Assembly: GCF_004210295.1 (NCBI RefSeq)
Contig: NZ_SDAK01000001.1
Location: 1,364,001-1,428,000 of the forward strand
Origin: Lactococcus sp. S-13
Lineage (GTDB): Bacteria; Bacillota; Bacilli; Lactobacillales; Streptococcaceae
Direction of reading: 5' to 3'
DNA: 64,000 bases
Shown here: piece after piece, positions 5,638 through 26,193 of the stretch
How the letters are laid out: the number at the start of each line of letters is the position of its first letter
How positions within the stretch are numbered: position 1 is the stretch's first letter
Notes under the pieces: generated by a model
What the model was told of the DNA's origin: nothing
Database searches by the model: none
The model's input: the letters and a program-made list of their open reading frames with translations, nothing else
Program-made: the position numbers and the translations under genes

Positions 5638-5859
5638 ATGCTTGAACTTTTTAATGATTTAAAGGAATTGATGACCGAATTATCTCAAGATTTTAAAGCT
5701 GTTGAAGCCAATGTTGAGCGTGTACAAACTGAAGCACTTAAAGCTGAACGGGTCAGCCAAGATATTCAACGAAAAGTCACTGAATTTAAGGCTTCAACCC
5801 AACCAAGAATTGAAAAAATCAATGAAATTTTGGATAAAATAACAAAAAAAGCTGATTAA
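5638..5859 (+). CDS. Small coiled-coil protein downstream of hit
   Basis: A 73-residue, highly charged, helical protein (start MLELFNDLKEL) with heptad-like spacing through most of its length and no membrane segment. Function unknown. The start is set by GGAG at 5628-5631, immediately after the hit stop, so it is probably translated from the hit mRNA. The stop codon lies inside the terminator stem. Similar small coiled-coil genes occur after hit in other lactic acid bacteria, by recollection of gene order only. Confidence 0.72.
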   Translation: MLELFNDLKELMTELSQDFKAVEANVERVQTEALKAERVSQDIQRKVTEFKASTQPRIEKINEILDKITKKAD

Positions 5860-5876
5860 AACCAGCTTTTTTTACT
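5844..5876. terminator. Bidirectional terminator
   Basis: AAAAAAAGCTG and CAGCTTTTTTT around an eight-base loop. It carries A/T tails on both sides and overlaps both convergent gene ends. Confidence 0.85.
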
Positions 5877-6216
5877 TTTTCGTTTTTTCTTGATATTTAT
5901 AAAACTGCCTGCCCCAAAAAATTCCTAAAAGTTGCGCTAATACGAATCCAACAATAATCACAAGCATCTTTTCAACATCATGATGCTGGATATAAGTAAA
6001 AACCCGTTGCGAGAGATACAGCACTGCAATAAAAATTACTAAAATGCTGTTCATACCAATAATTCGACTATATCTTCCTTTTCTACTTTCCCAAAAACTA
6101 AGAAAAAGAAGCAAAATAGCGACAATTTCTAGTCCAATCAGCGTAAGTCCCAAAATTTGAAAAATGTAGGCAATGATAAAGATAATTATCGTGAAAGCCA
6201 AGAGAAATAATAACAT
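5872..6216 (-). CDS. Four-helix membrane protein, probably leaderless
   Basis: A 114-residue hydrophobic protein with four likely transmembrane helices (about 3-22, 26-44, 53-72, 82-104) and a Lys-rich C-terminus. Function unknown. The ATG lies exactly six bases after TAGAAT, itself preceded by TGC (an extended -10), and there is no Shine-Dalgarno sequence, so the transcript probably starts at or beside the ATG. The gene is monocistronic, between rplA and the hit unit. Confidence 0.68.
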   Translation of the reverse strand: MLLFLLAFTIIIFIIAYIFQILGLTLIGLEIVAILLLFLSFWESRKGRYSRIIGMNSILVIFIAVLYLSQRVFTYIQHHDVEKMLVIIVGFVLAQLLGIFWGRQFYKYQEKTKK

Positions 6217-6261
6217 ATCTTTATTCTAGCACGTTTTTTCCCATTCTACAATTAGTATAAA

Positions 6262-23293: not shown

Positions 23294-23752
23294 TTATACC
23301 ATGTCTTTTTTGAATTTTAGCACATAAACAAACAACAAAATCGCAAAAACTATCCCGACAAGACTGGTCAAGAAGAATCCCAGACCAAAGATGCGCCAAA
23401 GTCCCTCAAACATTTCTAAGGACAAAGCAAATTTCAAAGGAACTCCTTCAGGAATCCGACTCAAAACTACATTCAAAAACATACCATAGCCATACACAAC
23501 CATGAAACTAAGTGAAAAATATTTCGTGCTTTGCCATTTCCGTAGAATCCCGATAATGATTATGATGAATAAAAGCACTAGAATCACACTGGTCACTTGC
23601 TCCTGCGTCCCAAGAAAATAAAAATAGTTCGCGCGGCTTTTAGAAAAATCGAATGTTCTAGCTACCTTATCCTGATTAACTGTGGCGGGTAGAAACATCA
23701 ACCCTACCCAGACCACAAAGGCTAAAATCAACTGCCATAATTTTACTTTCAT
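23294..23752 (-). CDS. Four-helix membrane protein B of the LytTR-linked operon
   Basis: A 152-residue membrane protein. Hydrophobic segments lie at about 8-24, 52-70, 78-96 and 118-144, with a loop rich in charged and aromatic residues (KVARTFDFSKSRANYFYFLG) between the first two. No family is recognised. It is last gene of the three-gene operon starting at 25000, with AGGAGG seven bases before the ATG. Size and topology resemble bacteriocin immunity or accessory proteins, but that is inference from context. Confidence 0.72.
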   Translation of the reverse strand: MKVKLWQLILAFVVWVGLMFLPATVNQDKVARTFDFSKSRANYFYFLGTQEQVTSVILVLLFIIIIIGILRKWQSTKYFSLSFMVVYGYGMFLNVVLSRIPEGVPLKFALSLEMFEGLWRIFGLGFFLTSLVGIVFAILLFVYVLKFKKDMV

Positions 23753-23804
23753 AGATTAACCTCCTACCCACTAAAAGATAAAACTGAATATTTTCTAGAT
23801 ATTC

Positions 23805-24209
23805 TCACCCTTTTCTCAAGCAAGCTACTGCAAAAGTCAACAGACCCAAAATCAAATTCAAATAGAAACCAAATCCCGTATAGCTCATTTGTTGTTGAAT
23901 AAAGTTTATAAATATCTGCCAAGGGATATTAAAAATATTGGTACTAAAAATTACCCATGATAGATAAACAAAACCAGATCCAACAAGGAAAAGACGCAAC
24001 TCTTTAGTCCATCTCTTTCTCTGCGAAACATACAAAATTACTGGTAAAATAGCAATCAAGAACTGTAAAGGAAAATCTGTGATTAGCTGAATGCCATAAC
24101 GTACCTGTTTGATATGATGCCCATTTATATTAGAACTATAGACATAAAAAGGAGTAAAGTAGGACAGCAAGAATAGCCCCAGAAGTGCAAAGTTTATTTT
24201 TCTAATCAT
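23805..24209 (-). CDS. Four-helix membrane protein A of the LytTR-linked operon
   Basis: A 134-residue membrane protein with hydrophobic segments at about 6-26, 42-62, 72-92 and 108-130, and a short extracellular-type loop YSSNINGHHIKQV. No family is recognised. It starts 20 bases after the secreted protein stops (AGAGGTG before ATG) and is followed after 52 bases by another four-helix protein of similar size. The two might form a pair, although I see no clear sequence similarity. Confidence 0.72.
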   Translation of the reverse strand: MIRKINFALLGLFLLSYFTPFYVYSSNINGHHIKQVRYGIQLITDFPLQFLIAILPVILYVSQRKRWTKELRLFLVGSGFVYLSWVIFSTNIFNIPWQIFINFIQQQMSYTGFGFYLNLILGLLTFAVACLRKG

Positions 24210-24229
24210 GATTTTTTCACCTCTACGCT

Positions 24230-25000
24230 CTAAAATGGCTGATTTGTTAACTTATAAGTCCAACTACTCGAACCATGCCAAACTTTTGCACTATAAGTCG
24301 TTGACTCCCTATTTCCTGCTTTTTGCATCTTTGTGAACCCTGTATTATAACTCCAAGAGTTTTGAGATCCCGTACTTCTTTGGAATTTTTGTGTATAAAA
24401 TCCCATTTGAGATACCACCTTACCATCTGTGACGTGTAAGCTACTATCATAGATAGAATATCCCCCAGATACGTCTGTAATGTTTACGAAATAGCTATCT
24501 ATGATTTTCCAATGAACTGCTAGTCTAAATTTGACACCGCCTGTTTTTTCCCAGCCAGCAGCTGAGCTATGGCTATCAAACGTAGTCGCTGCTGAGGCTT
24601 TCGTTCCAAAAACCCCTCCCAAAACAATAGCACCTAAATTAACACCATCAGAATCATCGTTTGTGACTTCTGCTTGTGCCAAGTCCACTGTGTATGTTGT
24701 TAAACCAGAAGTGGTGTCCTCTGTGTCAGAAGTCACTTGACTATCTACTGTTACTGGTACCACAAAATCATCTCCACCATTTTCACTATCTAAAGCAGCC
24801 GCATCATTCACTACATATTTTACTTGATTTTCCGTATCAGTAATAACCTTATCTGCATTATCTGGTACAATCAAGTTTACATCTCCATTTGATGCTACAT
24901 CAACATTTGGTGCTACTGTATCATCCGCCTTTACAGTCAGTCCAGCAGTAAAAAGTGCGCTGATTGCAAGTGTTCCGATAAATATTTTTTTCGTATTCAT
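24230..25000 (-). CDS. Secreted protein under LytTR-type control
   Basis: A 256-residue exported protein. The signal peptide runs to about residue 25 (GLTVKA-DDTV). An acidic, Val/Asp-rich segment (about 26-125) follows, which has the look of a propeptide or spacer. A second hydrophobic patch (VNLGAIVLGGVFGTKASAA, about 120-138) ends in an Ala-x-Ala-like site that could be a second cleavage point. The last ~115 residues are aromatic and beta-rich (WEKTGGVKFRLAVHWKIID, WSYNTGF). No family is recognised; it is not lactococcin 972. The AAGGAGA ribosome binding site is strong. Confidence 0.78.
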   Translation of the reverse strand: MNTKKIFIGTLAISALFTAGLTVKADDTVAPNVDVASNGDVNLIVPDNADKVITDTENQVKYVVNDAAALDSENGGDDFVVPVTVDSQVTSDTEDTTSGLTTYTVDLAQAEVTNDDSDGVNLGAIVLGGVFGTKASAATTFDSHSSAAGWEKTGGVKFRLAVHWKIIDSYFVNITDVSGGYSIYDSSLHVTDGKVVSQMGFYTQKFQRSTGSQNSWSYNTGFTKMQKAGNRESTTYSAKVWHGSSSWTYKLTNQPF

Positions 25001-25027
25001 AATAAAGTCTCCTTTTCTGAGTTAGTA

Positions 25028-25071
25028 TGTAAGTCACTAATTCAGAAATGAGTTCTAAATTATGACTTACA
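25028..25071 (-). promoter_or_regulatory. Long hairpin in the 5' UTR of the secreted-protein mRNA
   Basis: TGTAAGTCACTAATTCAGAA (25028-25047) pairs with 25053-25071 with few mismatches around a five-base loop. It ends 28 bases before the start codon and lacks a T-run, so it is more likely a stability or translation element than a terminator. Confidence 0.7.
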
Positions 25072-25198
25072 CAAGCAATGAGTTTCCATTTTTTAAATTT
25101 CCTTCTTGTCTTTTTTATACTTTACTTTGAGCTAGTACTTTTCTTAACTTTCCATTGGATTATCCTCGTTTCTTTTTAGTCTTAATTTTTATAAATTT

Positions 25199-25227
25199 AT
25201 TATAGCTCTTAACATTTTATATTTAAA
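25199..25227 (-). promoter_or_regulatory. Promoter of the secreted/membrane operon
   Basis: Minus-strand TATAAT (25199-25204) with weak -35 TTTAAA (25222-25227) and a 17-base spacer. A poor -35 box is usual for activator-dependent promoters. Confidence 0.72.
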
Positions 25228-25254
25228 GGATTTTTCGTTCAATTTCATTAATTT

Positions 25255-25284
25255 TGTGACGAAATCGATTTTTCTGTGATGAAA
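25255..25284 (-). promoter_or_regulatory. Direct repeats resembling a LytTR operator
   Basis: TTTCRTCACA occurs twice on the minus strand (25275-25284 and 25255-25264), start-to-start spacing 20 bases, about two helical turns. It ends 27 bases upstream of the -35 box. LytTR activators bind paired ~9-bp direct repeats with about this spacing. Confidence 0.6.
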
Positions 25285-25300
25285 CTGTATTTTTAGCGTA

Positions 25301-25333
25301 AAAATAATCATCTCTTCAAAAGATGATTATTTT
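25301..25333 (-). terminator. LytTR gene terminator
   Basis: AATAATCATCT/AGATGATTATT stem with T-run in the minus direction. It overlaps the stop and isolates the regulator from the operon it faces. Confidence 0.88.
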
Positions 25334-26055
25334 ATCCACTCTGAATTTTGTTTCAACACTTTCAGTTGTGACTTACAGACCGCAGGCGCTTTTATTTTCT
25401 TCAAGCTTTCTTCAAAACATAATGTTAAACCATCTTCTTCTATTCGGCGAATCTTCTTAGGATTTACCAAAAGCCCTCGTCCAAGCGAGAGTAATTCTGG
25501 TAACTCTATCCTTACTTCTTGCAACGTTCCCCGAACAAGGCACTCATTATCCTTGGTAACAGCTTTTAGATAGTTTCGATGAGTTTTATCCGCCAAAATA
25601 TAGAGGACTGAATCTAGTGCAATCGGATAACCACTGACTTCTACTGTTTTGAGATTGTTCGTGAAATTATAAGCTAAAACTCTATTAACCAATGACTGTA
25701 TTTCATTTTCGTCGTTACCTCTTAAGGTCATGTGAGTCCATAAAGGTAGAGTTGTAAGGGCGAGCAATTCCCTATCCAACTCTGAATTATCCGTATAAAT
25801 GACGAAAAAAGCCTTGGTTTTTACAGTTTGCATACGTTTCAAAATTTCCAACTCTTGTTTTGTTGCAACTTTTATAAAGCACACTTTTACCTCATCACAA
25901 AAAGTTTTGAGATACCTAAAAGAATCTTCATGATTATAAAATACCCTCGTTGAATAAACTTTTTCTCTGATTTCAAGCTCTTCTTGGGCCTTAAAGACAA
26001 AGCGCTCAAGGCGATTACTTGCATGGAACTCAGCATCAATCATAATACTCGCCAT
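25327..26055 (-). CDS. LytTR-family regulator with degenerate receiver domain
   Basis: A 242-residue AgrA/ComE-like regulator. The N-terminal half (about 1-125) lines up with a receiver domain (MIDAEFHASNRLERFVFKAQ) but has CFIKVAT where the phospho-accepting FLDID-type strand should be, so the Asp is missing. The C-terminal half (about 135-235) is a LytTR DNA-binding domain (YILADKTHRNYLKAV, GRGLLVNPKKIRRIEED). It is probably phosphorylation-independent. No histidine kinase is adjacent. The start is ATG at 26055 with GGGAGAAG nine bases upstream. It is monocistronic, directly upstream of the secreted/membrane operon. Confidence 0.85.
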   Translation of the reverse strand: MASIMIDAEFHASNRLERFVFKAQEELEIREKVYSTRVFYNHEDSFRYLKTFCDEVKVCFIKVATKQELEILKRMQTVKTKAFFVIYTDNSELDRELLALTTLPLWTHMTLRGNDENEIQSLVNRVLAYNFTNNLKTVEVSGYPIALDSVLYILADKTHRNYLKAVTKDNECLVRGTLQEVRIELPELLSLGRGLLVNPKKIRRIEEDGLTLCFEESLKKIKAPAVCKSQLKVLKQNSEWIK

Positions 26056-26193
26056 TATAAATTCTTCTCCCAATAATCTTCACATAGAAAAATATAGATT
26101 TTCATATTCATTTGTTAGATATTATAACACATATAATCTCTGACGCAGTCGTTTTCGATAAGCGCTTTCTTATTTTTTTGTTATAATGAAATC

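Follow-up and report, generated by a model that had tools for sequence, protein, structure and literature searches.

The window analysed here, a 64,000-nucleotide stretch of the 2.27-Mb genome of Lactococcus sp. S-13 (contig NZ_SDAK01000001.1, positions 1,364,001 to 1,428,000), contains a candidate bacteriocin locus on its minus strand: a LytTR-type regulator gene (REG, 25327..26055) upstream of an operon encoding a secreted protein (SEC, 24230..25000) and two small membrane proteins (MP1, 23805..24209, and MP2, 23294..23752). All four genes are intact at these coordinates. Along the minus strand the order is REG, a terminator, direct repeats, a promoter, a leader, SEC, MP1, MP2 and then typA; on the other flank of REG lie a transporter gene, a yqgQ-like gene and the glucokinase gene. 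The original prediction, made from the sequence alone, had the regulator facing the operon; regulator and operon are both present, but REG lies upstream in the same orientation and has its own terminator, a hairpin (25300..25331; 16-nt inverted repeat followed by a T run) that overlaps the REG stop codon. Because this terminator divides them, REG and SEC belong to separate transcripts.

REG starts at an ATG codon and is the sole LytTR protein encoded in the genome. Pfam finds its LytTR domain (residues 143-232; 42.6 bits, cut-off 22.6) and nothing else; a receiver domain was not found by sequence, comparison with the sequences of the PDB gave weak matches only, and it was fold comparison that settled the identity of the protein. 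The AlphaFold (AF2) model (pLDDT about 90) has a receiver fold (pseudo-receiver, residues 1-132) followed by LytTR, and its top Foldseek matches are to full-length ComE of Streptococcus pneumoniae (E 8e-12), followed by the LytTR domain of AgrA and by receiver domains, which bears out the AgrA-like layout first proposed. Strand 3 of the model (residues 56-62) ends in Lys62, at the position where the phospho-acceptor aspartate is expected; this lysine is invariant among seven REG homologues, none of which has an aspartate within residues 56-66. No kinase gene occurs among the genes neighbouring REG, and the genome has four HATPase_c_5-like kinase matches outside this neighbourhood. Both the missing acceptor and the lack of a nearby kinase had been noticed at the outset. 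Because Lys62 replaces the phospho-acceptor aspartate, the straightforward reading of sequence and model is that REG would act as a phosphorylation-independent switch. A search of genome contigs matched REG to four named loci, including those of L. cremoris NBRC 100676 and L. nasutitermitis (SEC had no match in the contig search); at a cut-off of E 1e-20, the 346 genomes searched from the order contained no REG outside Lactococcus, and within the genomes searched it is confined to Lactococcus. Between REG and the transporter gene a CcpA cre-like sequence (26155-26170) was seen by eye only and was not used.

Upstream of SEC, the direct repeats TTTCATCACA (25275-25284) and TTTCGTCACA (25255-25264), 20 bp apart from start to start, form a putative operator (25255..25284), which precedes a promoter (25199..25227; TTTAAA-17 bp-TATAAT) whose -35 element starts exactly 28 bp past the last repeat. 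The poor -35 (TTTAAA) would fit an activated promoter. The same repeats (consensus TTTCRTCACA, one repeat per 20 bp) with the same spacing are found 5' of the gene that follows REG in the related loci L021 and L026 (SEC), L081 (lactococcin 972, Lcn972) and L083 (a 106-aa secreted protein), and in less regular form in L082 (an ABC ATPase). Six different REG-linked cargo genes are preceded by the operator, and in all six loci compared (the window, L021, L026, L081, L083 and L082) exactly 28 bp separate the end of the last repeat from the -35 element and the -35/-10 spacer is 17 bp long. In the 2.27-Mb genome the strict repeat pair occurs once and a reversed control pattern not at all; a relaxed pattern adds one coding-like match containing GGTGGTGG, and this locus holds the only matching non-coding pair of the genome. 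The relaxed pattern has intergenic matches at REG loci in five genomes, and most of its other matches contain GGTGGTGG and resemble conserved coding sequence. No TTCRTCAC-type repeats lie within 200 bp upstream of REG at the loci scanned, nor in the REG upstream region of the window. An additional operator copy, with TTTCATCAT repeats, precedes a gene with a SEC-like signal peptide in L027. Positions 9138-10019 of L027 encode a second secreted protein, with a SEC-type signal peptide and a different, cysteine-containing C-terminal part, its gene having the operator 5' and two small membrane-protein genes 3'.

The cargo behind the operator varies. REG adjoins SEC in the window, L021, L026 and L034, which represent three differently flanked sites, the window and L026 sharing one. 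In L081 the adjoining cargo is Lcn972 (TIGR01653, 101 bits, cut-off 32) with a TIGR01654 membrane protein, both identified with NCBIfam; in L082 it is the Lcn972-group ABC ATPase TIGR03608; in L083 it is the 106-aa secreted protein with a permease-like protein; and in L084 a degenerate REG remnant lies beside a weak, below-cut-off Lcn972 match and TIGR01654. REG relatives thus always stand beside bacteriocin-type cargo. In L082 the sequence that separates REG from the ATPase gene (5831-6246) resembles, by eye, the decayed remnant of a larger membrane-protein gene. In genome G050 (L081 1192-4747) the order is typA, an MP2 homologue, ATPase, TIGR01654, Lcn972, operator, REG, yqgQ-like gene and glucokinase, whereas in the window it is typA, MP2, MP1, SEC, operator, REG, transporter, yqgQ-like gene and glucokinase, all that lies between MP2 and the operator being swapped. 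Because an Lcn972 cassette replaces SEC-MP1 at the same site, SEC-MP1 is itself best understood as a bacteriocin cassette, and this replacement is the strongest single argument for that assignment. TIGR01653 has no match in the whole genome of the strain, and SEC matches neither of the Lcn972 models TIGR01653 and PF09683 up to E 10.

SEC is a protein of 256 aa with one N-terminal hydrophobic segment (residues 5-23, followed by VKADD), a predicted signal peptide that agrees with its supposed secretion. The AF2 model consists of two all-beta domains (residues 32-106 and 156-253) joined by a disordered linker; the N-terminal part is acidic (pI 4.1), and the C-terminal domain (residues 138-256, 24233..24589; 119 aa), proposed to be the active part, is basic (pI 9.5) and has no cysteine. 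This charge split is kept in most Lactococcus and Streptococcaceae relatives, not in distant ones. A propeptide with a second cleavage site had been suggested, and a conserved [K/P]xxA motif, a putative cleavage site, does lie in the linker (residues 134-137) between the two domains. As anticipated, SEC, MP1 and MP2 belong to no Pfam or NCBIfam family. SEC has no match among PDB sequences, PDB folds or viral folds, its nearest folds in the PDB being FnIII-like and below significance, and it carries no catalytic signature.

MP1, directly downstream of SEC, and MP2 each have four predicted transmembrane (TM) segments, in accordance with the four-helix proteins originally described, and an MP1-equivalent gene lies downstream of SEC in the other Lactococcus and Streptococcaceae loci read. 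Across 12 SEC loci, identity of the C-terminal domain follows identity of the adjacent membrane protein (Mantel r 0.71, P 5e-5; partial correlation 0.71, P 2e-4), whereas that of the N-terminal domain does not (r 0.12, P 0.13). Between the window and L021, REG is 67% identical, the N-terminal domain of SEC 67% and MP2 68%, as against 28% for the C-terminal domain and 16% for the adjacent membrane protein. MP1 is accordingly proposed as the cognate immunity protein. MP2, which is the cognate-position partner of other SEC types, does not look like the cognate partner of the window's SEC; it seems instead to anchor the site and to stay in place as the cargo is exchanged, and it may serve as an additional or a retained immunity protein. 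Sites with MP-type genes but no SEC occur in G050 (beside Lcn972), G065 and G044 contig 23. In L138 (3689-4844) MP2-type and MP1-type genes stand without SEC at a site that in G067 (L027) holds SEC and membrane-protein genes.

Homologues of SEC are present in 10 of the 19 genomes of the genus; several are broken by stops or frameshifts, and that of the L. cremoris relative L026 lacks a signal peptide. SEC-MP pairs are carried on plasmids of L. garvieae and L. petauri, one of them 4379 bp long, where SEC and MP are two of five annotated genes, the others being a helix-turn-helix gene, rep and one more. No SEC relatives were found in phage records. Rgg-type regulators adjoin SEC in L022, L024 and L035, which suggests that the same cargo is under peptide-based quorum control there. 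The C-terminal domain alone extends further, to 9 of 398 other Bacilli genomes and 7 of 397 other Bacillota genomes, and a frameshifted gene for it lies on a Clostridioides difficile plasmid. Many of these distant homologues combine a signal peptide with a different N-terminal domain, and their neighbours are small four-TM proteins, DUF5316 proteins or lipoproteins. DUF5316 proteins, which may be immunity proteins to judge from this position, stand beside C-terminal-domain homologues in L116-L119 and L073 (other Bacillota); in L115, L120, L121, L080, L079 and L076 the distant SEC homologues neighbour small lipoproteins, not multi-TM proteins.

The SEC leader (25001..25198, about 200 nt) contains the short open reading frames (ORFs) METHCLCKS (25060-25089) and MES (25144-25155) and a hairpin (25029-25070; fold z -2.2) just 5' of the SEC ribosome-binding site, with a short ORF ending at or within this strong hairpin. 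A similar arrangement of short ORF and hairpin, different in sequence, is seen in L021, L026, L083 and L027, the peptides of these relatives being MKNLST, MENILSSKL, MEKLSTA and MKNLSSA. A single stem pair shows a compensatory change, in a weak alignment, and no Rfam family matches the region. Control through a leader peptide or RNA structure is possible, and is offered as a lead rather than a result.

From these comparisons, the operon very probably encodes an unnamed type of secreted antibacterial protein together with protective membrane proteins, switched by its own regulator. REG would serve SEC-MP1-MP2 as a dedicated activator, binding the direct repeats to turn the operon on, presumably without phosphorylation. 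SEC would be exported by the Sec pathway, its acidic N-terminal part acting as a pro-domain or chaperone, and the basic beta-sandwich C-terminal domain, whether or not released at the KASA motif, would be antibacterial against related bacteria; MP1 would protect the producer, and MP2 may be a further or left-over immunity protein. SEC has two features of a bacteriocin, a signal peptide and an adjacent, co-diverging immunity candidate whose protective role is predicted. The original idea, that a LytTR regulator with a degenerate receiver drives a secreted toxin and its immunity proteins, is well supported in sequence comparison by the exchange with Lcn972, the co-divergence, the carriage on plasmids and the MP genes found without SEC. 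Several points weigh on the other side: the whole-protein SEC model has no fold match below E 1e-3, so that neither a target nor a way of killing is indicated; no SEC homologue has an experimentally tested activity; cleavage at the KASA motif is putative, the motif being missing in the more distant homologues aligned; and the 12 loci of the Mantel test lack phylogenetic independence.

Secreted ligands and their membrane receptors would likewise diverge together, and SEC could accordingly be a secreted ligand, with the MPs acting as its receptors or in its processing, as part of signalling or of a surface-stress response involving no toxin. The FnIII-like beta folds of SEC, its lack of a catalytic signature and the several types of regulator beside it (LytTR, Rgg) are compatible with such a role, but a bacteriocin, Lcn972, replaces SEC behind the same operator, and carriage on small plasmids, the retention of MP genes where SEC is absent, a patchy distribution and frequent decay all speak against it. 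This explanation is unlikely, and for the surface-stress response raised in the original prediction no positive evidence was found. The same prediction drew a parallel with HdrRM and BrsRM, LytTR Regulatory Systems (LRS) in which, applied here, MP1 or MP2 would inhibit REG at the membrane and SEC would be an effector or signal. Absence of a kinase, direct repeats about 20 bp apart before a promoter and nearby small membrane proteins give the parallel its appeal; the regulators of defined LRS, in contrast, have no receiver domain (PMC6193735), whereas REG has a receiver fold, and in LRS the repeats precede a single operon of the regulator and, downstream of it, the inhibitor, which gives positive autoregulation, whereas REG has its own terminator and no upstream repeats. 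REG in L081, moreover, keeps the operator without MP1, and MPs accompany SEC without REG on plasmids and at Rgg loci. Control of the HdrRM kind was therefore rejected on three tested features (receiver present, MPs outside the REG operon, no repeats at REG) and is very unlikely. That REG has some other target and an unrelated SEC operon was inserted beside it by chance, as its separate transcript might allow, is scarcely credible given the adjacency of REG and SEC at three differently flanked sites, the constant 28-bp operator-promoter geometry and the single non-coding operator in the genome.

A broader proposal, for which the chances seem about even, is that SEC is the founding member of a family of two-domain antibacterial proteins secreted across the Bacillota, whose immunity partners can be exchanged (four-TM proteins, DUF5316 proteins, lipoproteins), and that the Lactococcus locus is a cassette exchange site behind a fixed pseudo-receiver regulator and operator, kinase-less and possibly with a leader-peptide step. 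The analysis provides a testable function for the SEC family, undescribed in Pfam and NCBIfam, and for DUF5316, and does so in a food-grade genus with bacteriocins of practical value. The locus is also a clean example of a regulator-operator socket that stays fixed while the bacteriocin cassettes behind it are interchanged, and with a LytTR regulator whose receiver is not phosphorylatable in the usual way, the question of what triggers such regulators becomes directly testable. No description of the SEC family, its pairing rules or an exchange site behind a pseudo-receiver regulator was found in the literature searched, nor was any paper on DUF5316.

Three elements are of a kind already known: the fold of the regulator, the control of bacteriocins by LytTR proteins, and secreted bacteriocins accompanied by immunity proteins. 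ComE/AgrA response regulators share with REG the full-length fold, the LytTR output and tandem direct repeats of 9-10 bp, spaced by two helical turns, that lie 5' of the target promoter; REG differs from them in its invariant lysine at the phospho-acceptor site and in having no kinase or pheromone gene adjoining. HdrRM and BrsRM likewise represent kinase-less LytTR control linked to bacteriocin genes through direct repeats, but here a receiver is present, the repeats (TTTCRTCAC, as opposed to the ACCxxTTAx type of LRS operons) stand at the target promoter instead of the regulator's own, and the membrane proteins are part of the cargo. Lcn972 cassettes (TIGR01653, TIGR01654, TIGR03608) resemble the SEC cassette in combining a Sec-type, beta-rich bacteriocin (a candidate one here) with a dedicated membrane protein under ComE-fold LytTR control, at the same chromosomal site and behind the same operator; in pneumococcus an Lcn972-family cassette, streptococcin B, is under ComE (PMC11796350). 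SEC is larger (256 versus about 100 aa), carries an acidic domain in addition and is partnered by a small four-TM protein, whereas the partner of Lcn972 is a membrane protein of roughly 650 aa with an ATPase. Dysgalacticin and streptococcin A-M57 are class III bacteriocins of medium size, Sec-secreted and encoded on a small plasmid, with the membrane-associated immunity protein DysI adjoining (PMC8308785); the SEC system may work alike, a likeness drawn by description only. Polymorphic toxins have in common with it a conserved N-terminal part, a variable C-terminal part with variable immunity, and MP genes that occur without SEC, but the C-terminal domain of SEC is one divergent family and is accompanied by no contact-dependent or phage-like delivery system.

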